The notes below the pieces were generated by a model that saw nothing but the letters and a program-made list of their open reading frames with translations, made no database searches and was not told the origin of the DNA. A stretch of DNA of 64,000 bases from Gemmatirosa kalamazoonensis (GTDB lineage: Bacteria > Gemmatimonadota > Gemmatimonadetes > Gemmatimonadales > Gemmatimonadaceae), in assembly GCF_000522985.1 (NCBI RefSeq), contig NZ_CP007128.1, positions 4,386,220 through 4,450,219 of the forward strand. The letters are read 5' to 3'. Positions within the stretch are counted from its first letter, which is position 1; each line of letters opens with the position of its first letter. The translations under genes and the position numbers were made by a program. Shown in pieces: positions 36,233 to 55,695 of the stretch.

Positions 36233-36376
36233 TGAACCGCAGAGGACGCAGAGGGCCGCAGAGAGCATCAACAGCAAAGACCCGGGGATGAAAGGATCCC
36301 AGGATCCCTGAGGATCCTTTCATCCCCAGATCTTTTGCTGTTCGAAGAGGCGGCCCTCTGCGGCCCTCTGCGGTTC
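36233..36376. repeat. Nested inverted repeat, GCAGAGGGCC units
   Basis: A nested structure with arms starting GAACCGCAGAGG and ending CCTCTGCGGTTC, made of near copies of GCAGAGGGCC, then a middle pair (CAACAGCAAAGA against TCTTTTGCTGTTC), and a 16-bp perfect core (36284-36299 with 36312-36327). It fills the gap between the SDR gene start and the S9 peptidase stop on the - strand. The outer unit matches the one in the hairpin at 48915-49159. Confidence 0.8.
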
Positions 36377-46400: not shown

Positions 46401-48896
46401 ATGGCCAGGTCCCAGCGCAAGGACGAGATCCTCGCCTCCGAGGTCCCCCCGGTCCTCCCGCTCATGGCGCTGCGCTCCACCATCGTGTACCCGCTGGGGA
46501 CGATCGCGGTGCAGATGGGGGCGCCCGAGAATCTCGCGCTGCTGCGCGCGAACGAGGAGCCCGGCGTCATCGTCGCCCTCGTCGTCGCCTCGGGCGACCA
46601 CGAGGATCCGATGGAGGTCGCGAAGTTCGTCGGCCGAGTCGGCGTGGCGGCCCGCGTGCACGAGCGCATCAACCTCCCCGGCGACACCGTCCAGATCACG
46701 CTCCAGGGGCTGCGGCGGATCACCGTCGACGGCATCGAGCAGTCGGACCCGTTCGCCATCGCGCGCGTCTCGCCGGCGAAGGACATCCCGGTCGATCCGA
46801 CCGAGCTCGACGAGCTCGTGTCGCGCGTGGTGCAGGCGGCGGAGTCGCTCGCCAACATGGTCGACCGCATCCCCGACGAGGTGCCGGCGATCCTGAAGAT
46901 GAACGTCTCCGATCCGGGGCGGTTCGCCGACCTCGCGGCGACGAACATGAACTTCCGGATCGCCGACAAGGACGAGGTCCTGCAGCGCCTCGACGTCGGC
47001 CAGCGGCTGCGCTTCATCCTCTCGCGGCTCGAGCGCGAGGTCGCGCGCGCGCGCGTGATGGAGGACGTGAAGAAGCAGACCGAGATCAAGATCGAGCAGC
47101 ACCAGCGCGAGTTCTATCTGCGTCAGCAGCTGCGGGCGATCCAGGCGGAGCTCGGCGAGACCGATCCGGGCGAGAAGGAGGCGGTGGACATCATCCGCCG
47201 CATCGACGAGGCGAACCTGCCGGAGAAGGTGACGCAGGAAGCGAAGCGCGAGATCGAGCGGCTCCGCATGCTCTCGCCGGCGTCGAGCGAGTACCAGGTG
47301 ATCCGCACGTACCTCGACTGGATCCTCGCCTTGCCGTGGCACAAGCGCTCCGGCGACAAGGAGATCGATCTCAAGAAGGTCGAGGAGGCGCTCGGCGAGC
47401 GGCACTACGGGCTCGACGAGGCGAAGGACCGCATCGTGGAGTACCTCGCCGTGCAGAAGCTGAAGGGGGGCGACCCGAACGGGCCGATCCTCTGCTTCGC
47501 CGGCCCGCCGGGCACGGGCAAGACGTCGCTCGGCGAGGTGATCGCGAAGGCGATCGGGCGCGACTTCTACCGCATCTCGGTGGGCGGCGTGCGCGACGAG
47601 GCGGAGATCCGCGGCCACCGGCGCACGTACGTCGGCTCGATGCCGGGGCTCCTCATCCAGGCGCTGCGGCGCGTGGGGGTGAAGGACCCGGTGTTCCTCA
47701 TCGACGAGATCGACAAGATGTCCGGCGGTGGGCCGAGCGGCGATCCCACGGCGGCGATGCTGGAGGTGCTCGACCCGTCGCAGAACTCGTCGTTCGTCGA
47801 CCACTACCTGAACCTGCCGTTCGACCTCTCGTCGGTGCTGTTCATCTGCACGGCGAACAACATCTTCGACATCCCCGGCCCGTTGCGCGACCGCATGGAG
47901 GTCATCCGCATCGCCGGGTACACGATCGAGGAGAAGGTCGAGATCGCGTGGCGCTATCTCATCCCGCGGCTGCTCGACGAGCACGGGCTGTCCGACAACG
48001 ACATCGTGTTCACCGACGAGGTGCTGTCGTTCGTGTCGAGCCGCTACTCGCGCGAGGCGGGGCTCCGCAACTTCGGGCGCAACCTCGCGACGCTCATGCG
48101 CAAGCGCGCGCGCCGGAAGGCCGACGGCGAGGAAGGCGCCTGGGTGCTCGACCTCACGAACGTCGAGGAGGTGCTGGGCCCTCCGCGCTACGCGATGGAG
48201 GAGGCGGAGAAGGAGCCGGAGGTCGGCGCGGTGACGGGGCTCGCGTGGACGTCGACGGGCGGCGATCTCATGGTGATCGAGGCGCTGCGCATGCCGGGGA
48301 ATGGCCGCCTAACGGTCACCGGTCAGCTCGGCGACGTGATGCGCGAGAGCGTGGACGCGGCGCACTCGTTCGTGCGCTCGCGCGCGCGCCAGATCGGCAT
48401 CGACGAGCGGGAGTTCAAGGACTCCGACATCCACATCCACTTCCCCGCCGGCGCGATCCCGAAGGACGGGCCGTCGGCCGGCATCGCGATCACGCTCGCG
48501 ATCGCGAGCGTGCTGTCGCGCCGGCCGATCCGCCGCGACCTCGCGATGACCGGCGAGGTGACGCTGCGCGGCAAGGTGCTGGAGATCGGCGGCGTGAAGG
48601 AGAAGGTGCTCGCCGCGTACCGCGCGGGGCTGCGCGAGGTGATCCTGCCGAAGGGCAACGAGAAGGATCTGCGCGACGTGCCGAAGGAGGTGCGCGAGAA
48701 CATGACGTTCACGTTCGCCGGCACGATGGACGAGGTGCTGCGGCTCGCGCTGCTCGACGCGCCGGTGCCGCGCGCGGACCAGGCGCCGGAGGGGGACGAG
48801 CACTCGGCGCCGATCTCCGACGCGGCGGACCTGGAAGTCGGCGCGAACCGACGCACGCCGGGGGCGAGATCGGACGTCGCGGTGGCGGACCGTTAG
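46401..48896 (+). CDS. lon: ATP-dependent protease Lon
   Basis: An 831-residue LonA. I chose ATG 46401 because MARSQRKDEILASEVPPVLPL fits the LonA N-terminus. Residues to about 310 form the substrate-binding N-domain; then AAA+ with FAGPPGTGKTSLGE (Walker A) and PVFLIDEIDKM (Walker B); and the protease domain with the catalytic Ser692 in KDGPSAG and Lys in the GGVKEK motif (733/735). The last 40 residues are an acidic, likely flexible extension. It degrades misfolded and regulatory proteins in the cytosol. The stop is within a CGTTAGGC word, and the largest hairpin of the window follows. Confidence 0.96.
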   Translation: MARSQRKDEILASEVPPVLPLMALRSTIVYPLGTIAVQMGAPENLALLRANEEPGVIVALVVASGDHEDPMEVAKFVGRVGVAARVHERINLPGDTVQITLQGLRRITVDGIEQSDPFAIARVSPAKDIPVDPTELDELVSRVVQAAESLANMVDRIPDEVPAILKMNVSDPGRFADLAATNMNFRIADKDEVLQRLDVGQRLRFILSRLEREVARARVMEDVKKQTEIKIEQHQREFYLRQQLRAIQAELGETDPGEKEAVDIIRRIDEANLPEKVTQEAKREIERLRMLSPASSEYQVIRTYLDWILALPWHKRSGDKEIDLKKVEEALGERHYGLDEAKDRIVEYLAVQKLKGGDPNGPILCFAGPPGTGKTSLGEVIAKAIGRDFYRISVGGVRDEAEIRGHRRTYVGSMPGLLIQALRRVGVKDPVFLIDEIDKMSGGGPSGDPTAAMLEVLDPSQNSSFVDHYLNLPFDLSSVLFICTANNIFDIPGPLRDRMEVIRIAGYTIEEKVEIAWRYLIPRLLDEHGLSDNDIVFTDEVLSFVSSRYSREAGLRNFGRNLATLMRKRARRKADGEEGAWVLDLTNVEEVLGPPRYAMEEAEKEPEVGAVTGLAWTSTGGDLMVIEALRMPGNGRLTVTGQLGDVMRESVDAAHSFVRSRARQIGIDEREFKDSDIHIHFPAGAIPKDGPSAGIAITLAIASVLSRRPIRRDLAMTGEVTLRGKVLEIGGVKEKVLAAYRAGLREVILPKGNEKDLRDVPKEVRENMTFTFAGTMDEVLRLALLDAPVPRADQAPEGDEHSAPISDAADLEVGANRRTPGARSDVAVADR

Positions 48897-48914
48897 GCGA
48901 GGCCGTTGCACGCG

Positions 48915-49159
48915 GAGACGCGGAGCACCTCGATTGCCTGTGAGTGAACCGCAGAGGGCCGCAGAGGGCCGCAGAGGACCCCCTCTTTGGCTTTGTATTC
49001 AACCACAGAGGACACGGAGGACACAGAGGACACCAACTTCTTGAAAAGGTTCTCCTCTGTGTCCTCCGTGTCCTCTGTGGTTCAAAGAGCAGTCGCCGTT
49101 CTCTGCGGCCCTCTGCGGCCCTCTGCGGTTCAATTCCGACAGGCAGTTCTCCGCGTCTC
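48915..49159. repeat. Triple-nested perfect inverted repeat between lon and the DUF445 gene
   Basis: Three nested stems: outer 11 bp (48915-48925 with 49149-49159, GAGACGCGGAG), middle 32 bp perfect (48945-48976 with 49101-49132, units GCAGAGGGCC), inner 30 bp perfect (49001-49030 with 49053-49082, units CACAGAGGA). Each stem is itself a tandem repeat with a different unit. It fills the gap between convergent genes and could stop transcription both ways, yet it is far larger than a usual terminator. Translations across it give only repetitive, spurious peptides. Confidence 0.9.
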
Positions 49160-49174
49160 GGCGCGACCTCGGCG

Positions 49175-50476
49175 TCAGAGCAGCCGCTGGATCGTGTACA
49201 GCAGCAGCCCGACCAGCCCGCCGACGACGGTGCCGTTGATGCGGATGTACTGCAGGTCCTTGCCGATCTGGATCTCGATGCGGCGCGACGTCGCGGCGGG
49301 ATCCCAGCCGGCGACGGTGGTCTCGATGAGCTGCGCGACCTCCGAGCGATACTGCTCCACCGCGAACAGCACCGCGTCGGTGATCCAGCCGTCGACCTTC
49401 GCCATCAGCTCGGGGTCGCCGAGGATCGCGTTGCCCAACGACACGAGGCCGCGCTCGACCGCGAGCAGCGTGCTCGTCCCCTCCCCCTCCTCGGCGTAGC
49501 GCGCGAGCTTCGACTTCACGTCGCTCCAGATCGACGCGGCGTACTCGCGCACGGCGGGGTGCGTGAGCACCTCCTCCTTGATCGCCTCGGTGCGCGCGAT
49601 GGTGTCGGGCGACGTGCGCAGCTTCTCGGCGAAGCGGCGCACGGCCTCGTCGAACCGCGCGCGCACCGTGTGATTCGGGTTCGCGGCGATCTCCACGAGC
49701 GTGCGCTCGAGCGCGGCGACGACCTTCTCGTGGATCCGATCCTCCACCGCGCCGGGCATCCACCACGGTGCCTCGGCGGCGATGCGGTCGCGGATCATCC
49801 CCTCGTTCTCGCCCACGAAGCGAACGGCGAGGCGGAGCGCGTCGTCGAACAGCTCCTGGTGGCGGCCGTCGGCCGTCAGCAGCTCGACGCCGCGTCCGAG
49901 GATCGGCGCGACCTGCACCTTCTGCGCGCGGCTCACCAGGCTGCGCTCGATGAAGTCCTGCACGTCCTCGTCGCGCAGCACCTGCGCGGCGCCGTGCAGG
50001 CTCGCCGCGACCTGGCGCCCCATGGTGCGCGCATGCGCCGGGTCGGACAGCCACGTCGCGACGCGGGCGCCGACGCGCGCCGAGGCGAGCTTCGCGGCGA
50101 CGACCTCGCGCGCGAGGAAGTTGCGCTGCACGAACGTGCCCAGGCTCCGTCCGATGCGGTCCTTGCGCGCCGGCACGATCGCCGTGTGCGGGATCTTCAG
50201 GCCTAACGGATGCCGGAACAGCGCCGTCACCGCGAACCAGTCGGCCACGCCGCCCACCATCGACGCTTCGGCCGCGGCGCGCACGTAGCCGAGCCACGGA
50301 TAGCGCGGCTCGAGCCACCGTGCCACGACGAACAGCACCGCCGCGACGCCCAGCATGCCGGTCGCGCGCCGCTGCATCACGACGAGCTGCCGCTGCTTCT
50401 CGGCCTCGTCCGCGATCGGCGGCGGCACGGTGGGATCGTGCTCCGGCCGCAGGATGACGCCGGTGCCGTCCGTCAC
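49175..50476 (-). CDS. DUF445 family membrane-associated protein
   Basis: A 433-residue protein starting with GTG 50476, overlapping the upstream gene's stop (GTGA). Near residue 42 a TM segment (GMLGVAAVLFVVARW) is followed by the DUF445 hallmark AAAEASMVGGVADWFAVTALFRHPLGLKIPHTAI (split: ASMVGGVADWFAVTALFRHP and LGLKIPHTAIVP). A long helical stretch follows, and a last hydrophobic segment (NGTVVGGLVGLLLYTIQ) ends the protein. Function is unknown; the family relates to YheB/YjiN-type proteins. It is the last gene of the operon that contains pilD and the Clp-like ATPase. Confidence 0.88.
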   Translation of the reverse strand: MTDGTGVILRPEHDPTVPPPIADEAEKQRQLVVMQRRATGMLGVAAVLFVVARWLEPRYPWLGYVRAAAEASMVGGVADWFAVTALFRHPLGLKIPHTAIVPARKDRIGRSLGTFVQRNFLAREVVAAKLASARVGARVATWLSDPAHARTMGRQVAASLHGAAQVLRDEDVQDFIERSLVSRAQKVQVAPILGRGVELLTADGRHQELFDDALRLAVRFVGENEGMIRDRIAAEAPWWMPGAVEDRIHEKVVAALERTLVEIAANPNHTVRARFDEAVRRFAEKLRTSPDTIARTEAIKEEVLTHPAVREYAASIWSDVKSKLARYAEEGEGTSTLLAVERGLVSLGNAILGDPELMAKVDGWITDAVLFAVEQYRSEVAQLIETTVAGWDPAATSRRIEIQIGKDLQYIRINGTVVGGLVGLLLYTIQRLL

Positions 50477-51732
50477 TCGTGTAACGTCACCTTCGTGAGG
50501 TCGACCGCGGGGGTCGCGCCGGGCGGCGCGTCGACGTACAGCACGGCGGGCCGACCCTGCACGTCCGTGGCGCGCAGCAGGACGGTGCGTCCGCCGCCGC
50601 CGGTGTACTGGCGACCGCCGGCCGGCGCCGCGGGGCCGAGCTTCGCGTCGGGGTAGTGCTTCGGAAGCGTCTGGCCGAGCGCGTCGAAGAACTCCGCCGC
50701 GTCCTGCGCCGAGTCCCACACCGTGACCCACACGAACGCGTCGCCCTGCGGCGTGCGCACGATGTCGTAGCGATCGCCGTCCCATCCCTGCGCGGCGCGC
50801 GCGGCGAGATCGAGGTCCTCGGTGTGATGATAGAGCAGCAGCCGGATCTCGAACTCGCCCAACGTGCCCGTATAGGCGACGCTGCCCGGGGTCGGCGTCG
50901 GCAGCGTGATGGTCGTCGGCGCGTCGGGCTTGCCGCCGTCCTTGCCGAAGTACGCGTCGGCGTGCAGCACCTGCTCGGTCGACGTCGGGAGCCGCTTCAG
51001 CAGCGAATCACCGCCGCCGCGGTCGACGAAGCGGCGCGCGAACTCGGCGCCGCTGAGATACGGGAACAGCAGCGTCTCGCGCACGACGAACGGCGCCTCG
51101 GAGAGCACCGGCGTGCGCTCCATGTTCTCGCGGATCTCGCCGCGCACGCGATCCCACGCGCCCGGTGCCTGCAAGGCGACGCCGCTCGACGCGAACTGCG
51201 CGTAGCTCGCGAGCCCTTCGAGCGCCGCGTGCGCCGCGGCCGAGCGATCGTTCTCGCCCGTGACGCGCTCGATGGAGTCGAGGTTCGCGTGCTGGTCCTG
51301 CAGCGCGTGCACCAGCTCGTGCCGCAGCGTGACCTCGGCGGACGCGCTGTCCGCGCCGTCGACGATGTAGAGCGTCTTCGACTTCGGATCGTAGTAGCCG
51401 ACGATCTGGCGCTCGAGGATGCGCGCGAGGAGCTGCCGCAGGTTGACGCTGTCGGGCACGAGGCCGAGGCGCTTGTACGCCGCTTCTTCGGCGGCGACGT
51501 CACGGCGCGCGAGCGAGTCGTCGAGCGTCTGCTGCACGAACGCCCGCACCTGGTCGGCCGAGCGCACCTCGACCTTCGGCGGCGACACGAAGCGCAGCCC
51601 CGTGGCGTGCTCGATCTGCGGCGCGAGCGCGACCGCGCGCTCCACGTACGAGCGGTGGTCGGAGGTCGTACGCTGGCAGGCGGCCGCCGCGATCGCCCCC
51701 GCCGCGACGACGAGGCGATGCGATCGCGTCAT
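50473..51732 (-). CDS. Lipoprotein with HExxH metallopeptidase-like motif
   Basis: A 419-residue protein. The leader MTRSHRLVVAAGAIAAAAC ends in a lipobox Cys. Near residue 140 is VTLRHELVHALQDQHANLDS, an HExxH zinc motif as in gluzincin-type peptidases; a conserved Glu downstream (AALEGLASYAQF) could be the third ligand. YYDPKSKTLYIVDG just before it resembles the substrate strand of minimal metallopeptidases. The rest is beta-rich and unassigned. Its ATG (51732) overlaps the Clp-like gene's TGA (ATGA), so I prefer it over the GTG two codons upstream. Peptidase activity is inferred only. Confidence 0.8.
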   Translation of the reverse strand: MTRSHRLVVAAGAIAAAACQRTTSDHRSYVERAVALAPQIEHATGLRFVSPPKVEVRSADQVRAFVQQTLDDSLARRDVAAEEAAYKRLGLVPDSVNLRQLLARILERQIVGYYDPKSKTLYIVDGADSASAEVTLRHELVHALQDQHANLDSIERVTGENDRSAAAHAALEGLASYAQFASSGVALQAPGAWDRVRGEIRENMERTPVLSEAPFVVRETLLFPYLSGAEFARRFVDRGGGDSLLKRLPTSTEQVLHADAYFGKDGGKPDAPTTITLPTPTPGSVAYTGTLGEFEIRLLLYHHTEDLDLAARAAQGWDGDRYDIVRTPQGDAFVWVTVWDSAQDAAEFFDALGQTLPKHYPDAKLGPAAPAGGRQYTGGGGRTVLLRATDVQGRPAVLYVDAPPGATPAVDLTKVTLHE

Positions 51733-53000
51733 GGCCACTTCACCGTCCGGCCCACGGTGCGCGACACGATCCGCGCGACGTCTACGCCGCGCACCACGGC
51801 GCCCTCGGCGACGAGCAGCGGCGCGAGCTCCGCCTCGATCTCGCCGAGGCGCGGCGCGGGCGGCGGCAGCGGGCCGTCGGCGTTAGGCGCGGGACGCGGC
51901 GCCGGGCGCGGCGCGGCGCGCGGCGGCGTCTTCGGGATCGGCTGCGGCGGCGGCGCGTCGCCGAAGAACGACTCCAGCTCCTGGCCGAAGCGCTCGATGT
52001 ACGCCATGCCCTGCTGCGCGTAGCGATTGAGCTTGTCGGACCCGGTCTCTTCGGATGCGTCGTCGGGCGCGTCGACGCCGGCTTCCTCGGCCGGCTTGCC
52101 GGCGCGGCGGGCCTCGGCGCGCCGCTGCCGCGCGCGCTCGGCGCGCTCGTCCTCGGCGGCGGCGCGCTCGGCGATCAGCGCGCGGCGCTCCTTCAGCAGC
52201 GCCTCGGTGCGCGGCGAGTGCGCGGCCTTCGCCTGCAGGTGCGCGCACGTCTCGTCGAGCGCGTCGATGCAGCGGTCGGGGCGCATGCGCTCCACCATCC
52301 ACTCGTCGGTGAGCTGGAGCGCCGCCTGCAGCGCGTCGTCGGTGATGACGACGCCGTGGTGCCGCTCGAGGACGGCGCGGCGCGCGCGGAGGATCTCCAT
52401 CGTCTCCGGCGGCGAGAGCTCGCGGATGTCGACGCGCTGGAAGCGTCGCTCGAGCGCGGGATCGGTCATGATCCACCGCTCGTACTCGTCCGACGTCGTG
52501 GCGCCGATGACGCGGAAGTCGCCGCGGGTGAGCGCGGGCTTCAGCATGTTGCCGGCGTCCATCGCCGCGCCCTGCGCGGTGCCCTGCCCGACGAGGTTGT
52601 GCAGCTCGTCGATGAACAGGATGACGTCGGGGGCCGCGGTGACCTCGGCGACGATCGCCTGGACGCGCTCCTCGTACTGGCCGCGGTACATCGTGCCGCC
52701 GAGCAGCGCCATGTGGTCGAGCGCGAGGACGCGGGCGCCGCGGAGTGCGAGCGGGAGGCGCCCTTCCGCCGCGCGCTGGGCGAGCCCCTCCACGATGGCC
52801 GTCTTGCCGACGCCGGCCGGCCCGGTGAGCACCGGGTTGTTCTTGCCGTGCCGCAGCAGCACGTCGATCACGCGGTCGATCTCGGGGTCGCGGCAGCGGA
52901 TCGGGTCGAGTCGGCCGGCGCGCGCGGCCGACGTCAGGTCGCGCGTGAACTTCGTGAGCGCGGTCTCGGTGGATGGGCGCAAGATGTCGCCGAGCGTCAC
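51729..53000 (-). CDS. ClpA/ClpB-like AAA+ ATPase with only the first ATPase ring
   Basis: A 423-residue protein starting with GTG 53000 (GTGA overlap with pilD). It begins at LTKFTRDLTSAARAGRLDPI, the usual entry into the ClpA/B D1 ring, with LTGPAGVGKTAIVEG (Walker A), VILFIDELHNLVG (Walker B), VIGATTSDEYERW (sensor 1) and DPALERRFQ (Arg finger). A helical Glu/Arg-rich middle follows. The C-terminus RIVSRTVGRTVKWP looks like the D1-D2 linker (VVSxxTGIPV) and then stops. Thus neither the N-domain nor the D2 ring is present. It may be a dedicated one-ring ATPase rather than a degraded ClpB, because the frame and motifs are intact. Confidence 0.88.
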   Translation of the reverse strand: MTLGDILRPSTETALTKFTRDLTSAARAGRLDPIRCRDPEIDRVIDVLLRHGKNNPVLTGPAGVGKTAIVEGLAQRAAEGRLPLALRGARVLALDHMALLGGTMYRGQYEERVQAIVAEVTAAPDVILFIDELHNLVGQGTAQGAAMDAGNMLKPALTRGDFRVIGATTSDEYERWIMTDPALERRFQRVDIRELSPPETMEILRARRAVLERHHGVVITDDALQAALQLTDEWMVERMRPDRCIDALDETCAHLQAKAAHSPRTEALLKERRALIAERAAAEDERAERARQRRAEARRAGKPAEEAGVDAPDDASEETGSDKLNRYAQQGMAYIERFGQELESFFGDAPPPQPIPKTPPRAAPRPAPRPAPNADGPLPPPAPRLGEIEAELAPLLVAEGAVVRGVDVARIVSRTVGRTVKWP

Positions 53001-53878
53001 GGTTGCAGGATTCGCGTCATGTACCAGGCGATGAGGCGGTCGCCCCAGAGGAGTGTGAACAGCGCGGCGGGCGCGAGGAAGACCCCGAAAGGAATCTCCG
53101 TGATGTCGCGGGCGCCATCGAGCTCCTCGGTGGTACCCCCGGACGGCGCCGTCGATGCACCGCCGCGGGCGCGCAAGAGCCTCGCCGGCACCACGACGAG
53201 CGCCGCGACGACGGCCCCGATGAACGCGGCGACGAGCACGGTGAGCCCAGCGCGCCCGGCGCCGAGCGCGGCGCCGATGCCGGCCATCATCGTGATGTCC
53301 CCCTCGCCCATCGCCTCGCGGCCGAAGGCCCGCTCGCCGAGCCAGCGCAGGATCGCGATCGCGCCGGCGCCGGTGCACGCGCCCACGATGGCGTCGTACG
53401 GCCCGGCGAAGTGCGAGGATTCGGCGACGCTCGGCGCGAACCAGACCGCGAACGCGACGAGCAGCTGCCAGGCGAGCAGGAACAGCGTGAAGCCGTCCGG
53501 GATGACGTAGTGCTTCGCGTCGGTGGCGGAGATGCCGAACAGCACGGTGCCGAACACGGCGACCCGGAGCGCCTCGATGCTCGGACCGAACGTGGCGACG
53601 GCCGCCACCCAGCCGAGGGCGACGAGCAGCTCGACGGCCGGGTAGGCGGCCGAGATCGGAAGGCCGCAGCCGGCGCATTTCCCGCGCAGGACGAGCCAGC
53701 TCACGATCGGGACGTTCTCGAACCACCGGACGCCGCGGCCGCACTTCGGGCAGCGCGACGGCGGCCGCACGACGGACAGGCCCTCGGGCCACCGGACGAT
53801 GCAGACGTTCAGGAACGAGCCGATGACCGCGCCGATGAGGAACGCGAGGACGAGGGCGGCGGGCTGAGGGATGGGCAT
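52997..53878 (-). CDS. pilD: Prepilin peptidase (type IV leader peptidase, A24)
   Basis: A 293-residue polytopic membrane protein. MPIPQPAALVLAFLIGAVIGSFLNVCIVR (split: LAFLIGAVIGSFLNVCIVR) opens as in PilD; two CxxC pairs (RCPKCGRG, KCAGCGLP) form the cytoplasmic zinc domain; the catalytic aspartates are in SATDAKHYVIPDG and GEGDITMMAGIGAALG. It cleaves and N-methylates type IV pilins and pseudopilins. No pilin gene is in this window. The ATG 53878 lies 76 bp past the methyltransferase stop; the next gene overlaps by GTGA. Confidence 0.93.
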   Translation of the reverse strand: MPIPQPAALVLAFLIGAVIGSFLNVCIVRWPEGLSVVRPPSRCPKCGRGVRWFENVPIVSWLVLRGKCAGCGLPISAAYPAVELLVALGWVAAVATFGPSIEALRVAVFGTVLFGISATDAKHYVIPDGFTLFLLAWQLLVAFAVWFAPSVAESSHFAGPYDAIVGACTGAGAIAILRWLGERAFGREAMGEGDITMMAGIGAALGAGRAGLTVLVAAFIGAVVAALVVVPARLLRARGGASTAPSGGTTEELDGARDITEIPFGVFLAPAALFTLLWGDRLIAWYMTRILQP

Positions 53879-53954
53879 CACGGGAACTGCGGGCTGAGGG
53901 CGGGATCGAGCGCTGCGCTCAGGATGACGAGCGGCGGACCCGCGAGGCCACGAG

Positions 53955-54740
53955 TCACCCGCGGAGCGCCTCCGGCCGCAGCTCGTAGAGCAGGATCCCT
54001 GCAGCAACCGCCGCGTTCAGCGACTCGACACCGGGCGCGATGGGGATCGCCGCCAGCCGGCTCGCCCGCGCCCGGGCTCGCTGCGACAGCCCCGCGCCTT
54101 CGTTGCCGACCGCCAGGACGAGCCGCGCCGGCCGCTCGGCGGCGAGCCGCGAGACCGGCTGCCCCGCCCCGTCGGCGCCCCACAGCTCGGCCCCCGTGCC
54201 GGCCATCGCCTCGTCCAGCTCCTCCCACGCGGCGTGGGCCACCGGCTGGTGGAACAGCGCGCCCATCGCGCTCCGCACGACCTTGGCACCCCACAGGTCG
54301 ACCGTCCCGGTGACGGCGATCACACCCGCGGCATCGAACGCCGCCGCGCTCCGCAGCATGGTGCCGGCGTTGCCCGGGTCCTGCACCGCATCGAGCAGGA
54401 GGACGCAGCCGCCGTCGCCGAGGTGCGCGAGAACGTCGCTGGCGGTGGTGCGCGGCTGCTCGGCCACGGCGAGCACGCCCTGAGGCGAGTCGGTGTCGGC
54501 GGCGGAGGCGAAGTCGGTGTCGGAGACGTCGAGCAGCGGCACGCCGCGGACCTCGAGCGCGTGCCGGAGCGACGCGCCGCGCTCGGTCGCGTCGAGCGCC
54601 GGAGCGGCCAGCGCGCCGCGCACCGGCACGGCACTCGCCAATAGCTCCTCGACGGCGCGCACGCCCTCGGCGACGAACAGGCCGTGTCGCTCGCGGGCGC
54701 GGCGGCGGCGGAGGTCGCGGGCCAGACTCAGCAGACGCAC
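53955..54740 (-). CDS. TrmH/SpoU family RNA 2'-O-methyltransferase
   Basis: A 261-residue SPOUT methyltransferase. The N-terminal substrate-binding part starts RRRRARERHGLFVAEGVRAVEELL (split: ERHGLFVAEGVRAVEELL). The knot motifs are LLDAVQDPGNAGTMLRSAAAFDA (motif 1, catalytic Asn-Arg), LVLAVGNEGAGLSQ (motif 2) and IPIAPGVESLNAAVAAGILLYE (motif 3). It methylates a ribose in rRNA or tRNA; the exact target is not visible. It is divergent from the M48 peptidase gene across 127 bp. Confidence 0.9.
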   Translation of the reverse strand: MRLLSLARDLRRRRARERHGLFVAEGVRAVEELLASAVPVRGALAAPALDATERGASLRHALEVRGVPLLDVSDTDFASAADTDSPQGVLAVAEQPRTTASDVLAHLGDGGCVLLLDAVQDPGNAGTMLRSAAAFDAAGVIAVTGTVDLWGAKVVRSAMGALFHQPVAHAAWEELDEAMAGTGAELWGADGAGQPVSRLAAERPARLVLAVGNEGAGLSQRARARASRLAAIPIAPGVESLNAAVAAGILLYELRPEALRG

Positions 54741-54867
54741 GCGGCTACCTCCGCCCTTCGGAATGGACCTTGCCCCCGTTCGGCGGGTCGTAATAGTGGC
54801 AGAAGGGCTCCATTGCCGTCACAGGCAGACACGTGAACTCAAGCGCTCGCGGAGCATCGGAGTCGTC

Positions 54868-55695
54868 ATGAGACATTCTATCGTCCGCCGCACGATCGCC
54901 GGAGCCGCGCTGGCGCTGGCCGGCACGGCGTGCGGCGTCTCGCAGCAGCAGGAAGTCGAGATGGGCGCGCAGTACTCGGCGCAGATCAACCAGCAGCTGC
55001 CGATCATCACCGACGCGCTGGTGAACCAGTACATCAACACGCTCGGGATGGAGCTGGCGCGCGTCGCGGACACGCGCGGCCTCGAGTGGCACTTCTACGT
55101 CGTGAACAGCCCCGAGGTCAATGCGTTCGCGGTTCCCGGCGGCTATGTGTACGTGAACCGCGGGCTGATCGAGCGCGCGTCCAAGATGGACCAGGTGGCC
55201 GGGGTGCTCGGTCACGAGATCGGCCACGTGACGCATCGGCACTCGGTGAAGCAGATGGAGCAGCAGAACGGCGCGCAGATCGGCGTGACGGTGGCGTGCG
55301 TGCTCCAGCCGGCGGTGTGCAACAGCGGTCTCGGATCGACGGCGATCAACGTCGTGGGCACGGCGGTGTTCGCGAAGTTCAGCCGCAACGACGAGGCGGA
55401 AGCGGACCAGGCGGGGATCGAGTACACGACGAAGGCGGGCATCGACCCGCGCGGCATCCCCGAGATGTTCCAGATCCTGCTCGACGAGCGGCAGACGGCG
55501 CCGAGCAAGGTGGAGGCGTGGTTCGCGACGCACCCGCTGGAGGAGGACCGCATCCGCGACACCGAGGCGACGATCTCGAAGTACAACGTGGCGCAGCTGA
55601 ACCAGCTGACCAAGGACACGCAGAACTTCCACACGTTCCAGCAGCGGCTCCGGTCGCTGCCGCAGGCGCCGCAGTCGCGAACGGGCGGGAACTGA
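54868..55695 (+). CDS. M48 family zinc metalloprotease, lipoprotein (BepA/LoiP-like)
   Basis: A 275-residue protein. The leader RRTIAGAALALAGTACGVS gives a lipobox Cys near residue 22. The M48 domain has NSPEVNAFAVPGGYVYVNRGL, then GVLGHEIGHVTHRHSVKQ (HExxH) and the third ligand Glu in RNDEAEADQAGIEYT. FATHPLEEDRI near the end is also typical. Such enzymes degrade misassembled outer-membrane proteins. The ATG 54868 has GGAG upstream. It is followed by a tandem-unit hairpin. Confidence 0.92.
   Translation: MRHSIVRRTIAGAALALAGTACGVSQQQEVEMGAQYSAQINQQLPIITDALVNQYINTLGMELARVADTRGLEWHFYVVNSPEVNAFAVPGGYVYVNRGLIERASKMDQVAGVLGHEIGHVTHRHSVKQMEQQNGAQIGVTVACVLQPAVCNSGLGSTAINVVGTAVFAKFSRNDEAEADQAGIEYTTKAGIDPRGIPEMFQILLDERQTAPSKVEAWFATHPLEEDRIRDTEATISKYNVAQLNQLTKDTQNFHTFQQRLRSLPQAPQSRTGGN

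Follow-up and report, generated by a model that had tools for sequence, protein, structure and literature searches.

The Clp/Hsp100 ATPases are divided into two classes, class I members carrying two ATPase rings, D1 and D2, and class II members a single domain of the D2 type (as given in the available part of PMC5415569), and the D1 ring alone has been studied in engineered fragments such as ClpB NBD1-M. According to the accessible part of PMC4239642, NBD1-M (amino acids 141-534) expressed alone shows full, cooperative ATPase activity and trimerises in ATP, replacing either of its paired arginines by alanine reduces the activity about 1000-fold, and the arginine pair is required for the nucleotide-induced oligomerisation of ClpB NBD1. 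Here we report on a natural one-ring D1-type Clp/Hsp100 ATPase, Clp1, encoded between the genes for the prepilin peptidase PilD and a predicted HExxH lipoprotein in the soil bacterium Gemmatirosa kalamazoonensis. The stretch analysed (the window) comprises 64,000 nucleotides of contig NZ_CP007128.1, which is 5,311,527 bases long in a genome of 7,479,215 bases and four contigs. Taking the evidence together, we lean towards the reading that Clp1 is a working natural D1-only Clp/Hsp100 ATPase, vertically inherited, repeatedly lost, and at most an accessory of its operon. The locus stands out above all for its ATPase, a natural and stably kept D1-only Clp.

Pfam searches of Clp1 (expectation value, E, ≤1e-5) gave AAA at residues 57-189 and AAA_lid_9 at 198-294, both above cut-off, and AAA_16 below it. 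Neither Clp_N, AAA_2 nor ClpB_D2-small was called in the window copy or in two other copies; as controls, all three were called in the ClpB (L003) and the ClpC-like protein (L002) of the same genome, and AAA_2 and ClpB_D2-small, without Clp_N, in its TssH (L004). The complete ClpB and TssH pass their NCBIfam cut-offs (1380.2 bits for L003 on the ClpB model), and L002 is called ClpC-like because it carries a UVR motif; its highest NCBIfam match (ClpB) is below cut-off. The three top-scoring NCBIfam models for Clp1, those of ClpB, TssH and ClpA, are matched over their D1 part only, at 288-313 bits against cut-offs of 885-1232; specifically, the ClpB model TIGR03346 gives 312.8 bits over profile positions 152-439 of 853 and its curated cut-off of 1232.1 is not reached. 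Searched against the PDB, the Clp1 profile matches the first ATPase domain of ClpB, ClpC, ClpE, ClpA and Hsp104, and its scores within ClpB 1qvr are 346.4 bits for D1 and 2.7 bits for D2. The AlphaFold2 model of Clp1 (predicted local distance difference test, pLDDT, 85.4) has ClpB NBD1 4hse as its best structural match (Z 31.9, 3.6 Å, 308 residues), with model residues 13-414 lying on chain residues 151-532, which places the end of Clp1 near the D1-D2 linker; since it extends through the final lid helix (405-416), Clp1 constitutes a whole D1. Pfam, profile and 4hse alignment thus agree with the original prediction, made from the DNA sequence, that the ATPase extends from the D1 ring to the D1-D2 linker with its D1 motifs intact and has neither D2 nor N-domain. 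The ClpP-docking loop of ClpA and ClpC lies in D2. Pfam calls no D2 in Clp1, and so the docking loop that marks the Clp proteases was not found; Clp1 presumably lacks a ClpP partner.

The motif positions were placed by alignment to ClpB, and we take K66/T67 to be Walker A, Y105 pore loop 1, D131/E132 Walker B, T168 sensor 1 and R185/R186 the arginine pair. Residues K66, T67, D131, E132, T168, R185 and R186 are invariant in all 41 aligned Clp1 copies (47 strong matches in all), position 105 holds tyrosine in 21 of these and phenylalanine in 20, and W422 is conserved. The sequence varies at the N-terminus and in an insert that takes the position of the M domain in ClpB (approximately residues 262-400 in the window copy); this insert is Pro-rich/helical and in part modelled with low confidence. 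Moreover, at 17 positions one letter is present in at least 90% of the Clp1 copies and another in at least 85% of 83 canonical D1 rows (the divergent canonical rows L176, L004, L117 and L128 were left out); with the canonical letter first, these changes include I35R, G36C, P62A, E108Q, A139Q, L207R and A252C. Two of them introduce family-specific cysteines, C36 in 39 of 42 copies (G in canonical D1) and C252 in 42 of 42 (A in canonical D1). Both are presumably near the expected adenine pocket, and a redox effect on nucleotide binding is possible.

Complete Clp1 copies, the window's included, number 42 and are 373-488 amino acids long (L055, L079, L084 and L091 were dropped from the length set, and L044 also from the alignment). 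These copies, and the C-terminal lid segment common to the 41 that were aligned, show that Clp1 is not a chance frame. That it might be a decaying, functionless fragment of ClpB or ClpC is suggested by the absence of D2 and the N domain and by the frequent absence of the gene, but copies with 48-61% identity to the window's retain all motifs, and in the window the HExxH gene starts at the Clp1 stop, leaving no D2 remnant. The AAA core is also more conserved than the operon neighbours: within the window's family (f1) its median mean identity is 0.746, against 0.614 for PilD, 0.597 for the RNA methyltransferase-like protein encoded upstream and 0.501 for the HExxH protein. The conservation pattern speaks strongly against decay, which we regard as extremely improbable. 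An acceleration of the window's own copy was considered and rejected, as the proteins of its operon have the lowest mean identity or one of the three lowest.

Among 298 genomes of the phylum, 47 gave a strong match to Clp1 (E ≤2e-97; the best canonical Clp scored 2.4e-80). These belong to three families of one order, with 22 of 103 genomes in f1, 21 of 65 in f2 and four of four in f3, and none was found in the 126 sampled genomes of other families (at most five candidates were scored per genome). This screen misses broken genes, and three further copies (G104, G232 and G257) are interrupted by N runs or contig ends. Beyond the phylum, the matches listed when the Clp1 alignment was searched against genome contigs are two-ring proteins, and Clp1 is 46-53% identical to the 80 D1 matches listed in other genomes. 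No one-ring form was found among 87 Clp loci (80 from the contig scan, four from the phylum of genome G300 and L002-L004), i.e. none ends less than 480 codons past the start of the D1 match, four loci at contig edges excepted. In the phylum of G300 (locus L150, Terriglobia), 55 of 99 sampled genomes match at E ≤1e-100 with frames of 700-986 amino acids and 44 have no match at that limit; the best match there, L176, is a divergent two-ring protein with, by eye, a tetratricopeptide-repeat-like N-terminus. Among plasmids, 2062 records match Clp1, none over 80% of the query. The best 80 matches on viral contigs comprise 73 two-ring proteins as judged by frame length, five contig-end fragments and two short frames in which D2 is interrupted at Walker A, probably by inteins. 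In the viral loci L254 and L278 the Clp protein breaks off in the D2 Walker A as GPTGVGKC..., which resembles an intein insertion. A limited search of the open-access literature gave no description of a natural D1-only Clp/Hsp100 member in titles or abstract openings.

Phylogenetic analysis placed 13 Clp1 representatives in one clade against 87 other D1 sequences. The distances among Clp1 copies track those of three neighbours, with r = 0.92 for 42 loci and 0.80 for 20 f1 loci, and none of 2000 permutations gave a value as high (L084 was left out of the distance set, and loci lacking a needed gene at contig ends fall out of the counts). On a tree of 84 loci (L085 and L086 left out) the presence of Clp1 changes eight times, seven of these changes being forced by starred branches, and the nearest genomes there (L087, L088 and L089) have PilD-HExxH-DUF445 but no Clp1. 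The simplest account suggested by the trees is that Clp1 was ancestral in the order and was then repeatedly lost.

The genes of the group are listed in Table 1. In the window the stop/start overlaps of PilD/Clp1, Clp1/HExxH and HExxH/DUF445 are 4 nucleotides each. PilD scores 110.2 bits on A24_N_bact and 47.3 bits on Peptidase_A24, both above the Pfam cut-offs, and was on these grounds assigned as an A24 prepilin peptidase.

Table 1. Genes of the Clp1 group, with positions in the window
Feature	Position	Strand	Remarks
Clp1, one-ring D1-type Clp/Hsp100 ATPase	51729..53000	(-)	423 amino acids, GTG start
PilD, prepilin peptidase (A24_N_bact + Peptidase_A24)	52997..53878	(-)	293 amino acids
HExxH lipoprotein	50473..51732	(-)	419 amino acids
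DUF445 protein	49175..50476	(-)	433 amino acids; Pfam DUF445
RNA methyltransferase-like gene	53955..54740	(-)	named by reading the sequence, without family search

The original prediction was that the ATPase, PilD and the HExxH lipoprotein, in an operon with the DUF445 protein, could form an envelope or pilus quality-control unit. In its favour, all 46 Clp1 loci outside the window occupy the same slot as far as the contigs reach, with PilD directly upstream of Clp1 in 45 and HExxH directly downstream in 42; the exceptions, one without PilD and four without HExxH, are all at contig ends. The methyltransferase-like gene is a constant neighbour upstream of PilD (45 of 46). In 43 of 45 loci the distance from the Clp1 stop to the HExxH start is between -35 and +10 nucleotides, and 25 loci have a 4-nucleotide overlap there. 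On the other side of Clp1, 33 of 49 loci show a Clp1 start within this range of the PilD stop, and eight have the 4-nucleotide overlap; both sets of figures come from a script that takes the nearest start and is therefore biased towards coupling. The predicted coupling by overlaps consequently applies to all three junctions of the window, but overlap on the PilD side is not the rule elsewhere. The order methyltransferase-PilD-Clp1-HExxH is conserved wherever Clp1 is found and the contigs reach. A four-gene unit is not supported, as DUF445 varies: of the 46 loci only 10 have it in the orientation of the group and eight on the opposite strand, and in 28 it was not found in the fetched DNA, some of it cut by ends.

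Evidence that bears on a role for the whole group comes from genomes without Clp1. The slot was surveyed in 74 genomes, mostly at least 95% complete, out of the 125 f1 and f2 genomes lacking a strong Clp1 match, and HExxH was found in 71 and PilD in 73 of them. PilD and HExxH are adjacent, with a gap of at most 320 bases that leaves no space for Clp1, in 64, so these two genes do not need Clp1; the closest sampled genomes (G158, G169 and G244) are among them. Another insert (3.1-4.5 kilobases) occupies the PilD-HExxH slot in five genomes, three have the broken Clp1 copies noted above, and G113 and G172 are not assigned to a class. In the five genomes with the insert, all of f2 (loci L080-L083 and L085), it reads as encoding a sigma factor, a zinc-finger protein of anti-sigma type and proteins resembling DUF4097, and for L080 (3490-6340) Pfam gave sigma-70, zf-HC2 and two DUF4097. 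Furthermore, PilB (TIGR02538) is present above cut-off in 73 of 80 genomes, namely 32 of the 37 that have Clp1 and 41 of the 43 that lack it (above-cut-off counts were used, since at E ≤1e-30 the PilB model matches all 80 genomes and eight of 14 controls as well). In the window's genome PilB lies approximately 400 kilobases from PilD. A necessary role of Clp1 in an envelope or pilus unit is thus not supported. Loss of the gene order even in close relatives had been named beforehand as the outcome that would speak against such a unit; the outcome is mixed, in that the order around Clp1 is kept but the closest relatives have no Clp1.

The HExxH protein is likely a secreted gluzincin-type lipoprotein, as predicted from its sequence and fold model. 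Across 40 aligned sequences a lipobox-like C19 is nearly invariant, and H138, E139, H142 and E172 are invariant. In its fold model (pLDDT 91) the N-terminal part resembles 3cmn (Z 11.9), with a weaker likeness to the peptidase domains of clostridial collagenases (Z approximately 7), and the C-terminal part resembles TM1622 and TiME (Z 9) and DcrB/LpqN (Z 7-8). A plain Foldseek search with this model gave nothing at E ≤0.001, the first match being 3cmn at 2.2e-3, and no solved relative was significant by sequence (lowest E 0.087). The whole protein scores 121.5 bits against the Hvo_1808 family of surface proteins (NF038145), best over residues 26-266, and does not reach the curated cut-off of 200; it is accordingly a distant relative and not a member by cut-off. 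Since the lipoprotein is predicted to lie outside the inner membrane, direct contact with a cytosolic Clp1 ring seems unlikely. With this separation, the occurrence of PilD-HExxH without Clp1, the similar PilB counts and the inconstancy of DUF445, we consider the single quality-control unit quite improbable. The gene group PilD-Clp1-HExxH is real and conserved, and the proposal of it is in that part supported; the functional reading attached to it exceeds the data.

Gene order is in any case a weak argument for a functional unit here, as functionally unrelated genes near the group are also syntenic (Lon in 19, ADA in 17 and Ffh in 13 of 21 f1 loci). This raises a further alternative, with the same biochemistry as the reading that we prefer, in which Clp1 is a one-ring ATPase with a cytosolic job of its own and its place in the operon is merely inherited synteny. 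Both the conserved order of the whole block and the occurrence of PilD and HExxH without Clp1 fit well with this. It accounts less readily for the tight spacing to HExxH, although the script leans that way and the PilD side is looser, and for the finding that every strong orthologue outside the window occupies the PilD-HExxH slot. We regard inherited synteny as a distinct possibility, somewhat short of probable.

Other features near the group were also recorded. An M48-like HExxH lipoprotein (named by reading; 54870-55695) is encoded divergently just upstream of the methyltransferase-like gene, and is a second metalloprotease-like lipoprotein near the group. Between DUF445 and Lon, at 49003-49080, there is a long near-perfect hairpin of 9-nucleotide GGACACRGA-type units, which may be a dispersed repeat or a terminator; the RNA fold of 48985-49190 has a z of -9.45, and a related piece is present at 36237-36254. 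A consensus promoter scan of 48800-55000 found none. A role of the locus in anti-phage defence was considered and rejected, as PADLOC gave weak matches only. Finally, literature on Gemmatimonadota and pili or Clp contained no mention of the Clp1 locus in titles or abstract openings.

Returning to the reading of Clp1 as a working D1-only ATPase, sequence and model show that the D1 fold is complete, that its catalytic, trans-acting and pore-loop residues are in place, and that N domain and D2 are absent. In ATP it would assemble into a single ring, by analogy with the trimer assembly of NBD1-M, and its aromatic pore loop would pull polypeptides in the cytosol, so that Clp1 would act as a protease-independent remodeller; the variable insert might serve as a surface for a partner or substrate. 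The ancestor shared by the three families would already have carried Clp1 between PilD and HExxH, with vertical descent and several clean losses thereafter. Through the tight coupling of its gene to HExxH, and in many loci to PilD as well, the level of Clp1 would follow that of the two, making it at most an accessory of the pair, and the first substrate candidates, speculatively, would be precursors handled with the operon. A bolder version, in which Clp1 represents the first recognised natural D1-only class of Clp/Hsp100, a protease-independent one-ring unfoldase derived from D1, with its own insert replacing the M domain, that acts on the envelope-protein precursors of the operon, we consider unlikely.

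Alternatively, Clp1 could modulate the full-length ClpB or ClpC-like protein of the cell, joining or capping its D1 ring so as to tune or block it. Both partners are encoded in the genome, and the trans-acting arginines, which ClpB NBD1 needs for oligomerisation (accessible part of PMC4239642), are kept. Clp1 is, however, only 43-49% identical to the D1 domains of the two-ring proteins of its own genome and differs from canonical D1 at the 17 nearly fixed positions, and a mere cap would presumably need neither a Walker B nor a pore loop of its own; we give this alternative little likelihood.

Several points count against Clp1 being a working, vertically inherited ATPase of this kind. Its oligomer, threading and substrate are inferred. 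The NBD1-M of the analogy was seen as trimers, not hexamers (accessible part of PMC4239642), and carries a full M domain, which Clp1 does not. The I35R and G36C changes are beside the expected adenine pocket and could alter the activity. With respect to inheritance, the program that built the D1 tree warns of a possibly false join of Clp1 and the long branch L176, and the 84-locus tree was made by a quick method and leaves 18 forks open. Had Clp1 been gained repeatedly in this slot, the number of changes would be the same as for losses, although the agreement of distances speaks against gains. The repeated absence of Clp1 also shows that it is dispensable.

A natural, long-conserved D1-only protein would provide a ready system in which to ask whether a D1 ring alone assembles, hydrolyses ATP and moves polypeptide, and Clp1 may indicate that the first ring of the Clp motor can function by itself. 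Its closest counterpart is ClpB NBD1-M, with which it shares a nearly equal extent, the Walker motifs and the arginine pair; NBD1-M is engineered and has the full coiled coil of the M domain, whereas Clp1 is natural and has a variable, partly disordered insert in that place. With class I (ClpB, ClpC, ClpA and TssH) Clp1 has in common the D1 hallmarks, i.e. Walker A and B and the arginine pair, but it carries no N domain and no second ring. Like the class II members ClpX and HslU it has a single AAA+ domain per chain; theirs is of the D2 type, according to the available part of the classification (PMC5415569), whereas that of Clp1 is, as judged from sequence and model, of the D1 type. Being single but D1-type, Clp1 does not fit the two-class scheme of Clp/Hsp100 proteins as stated there.

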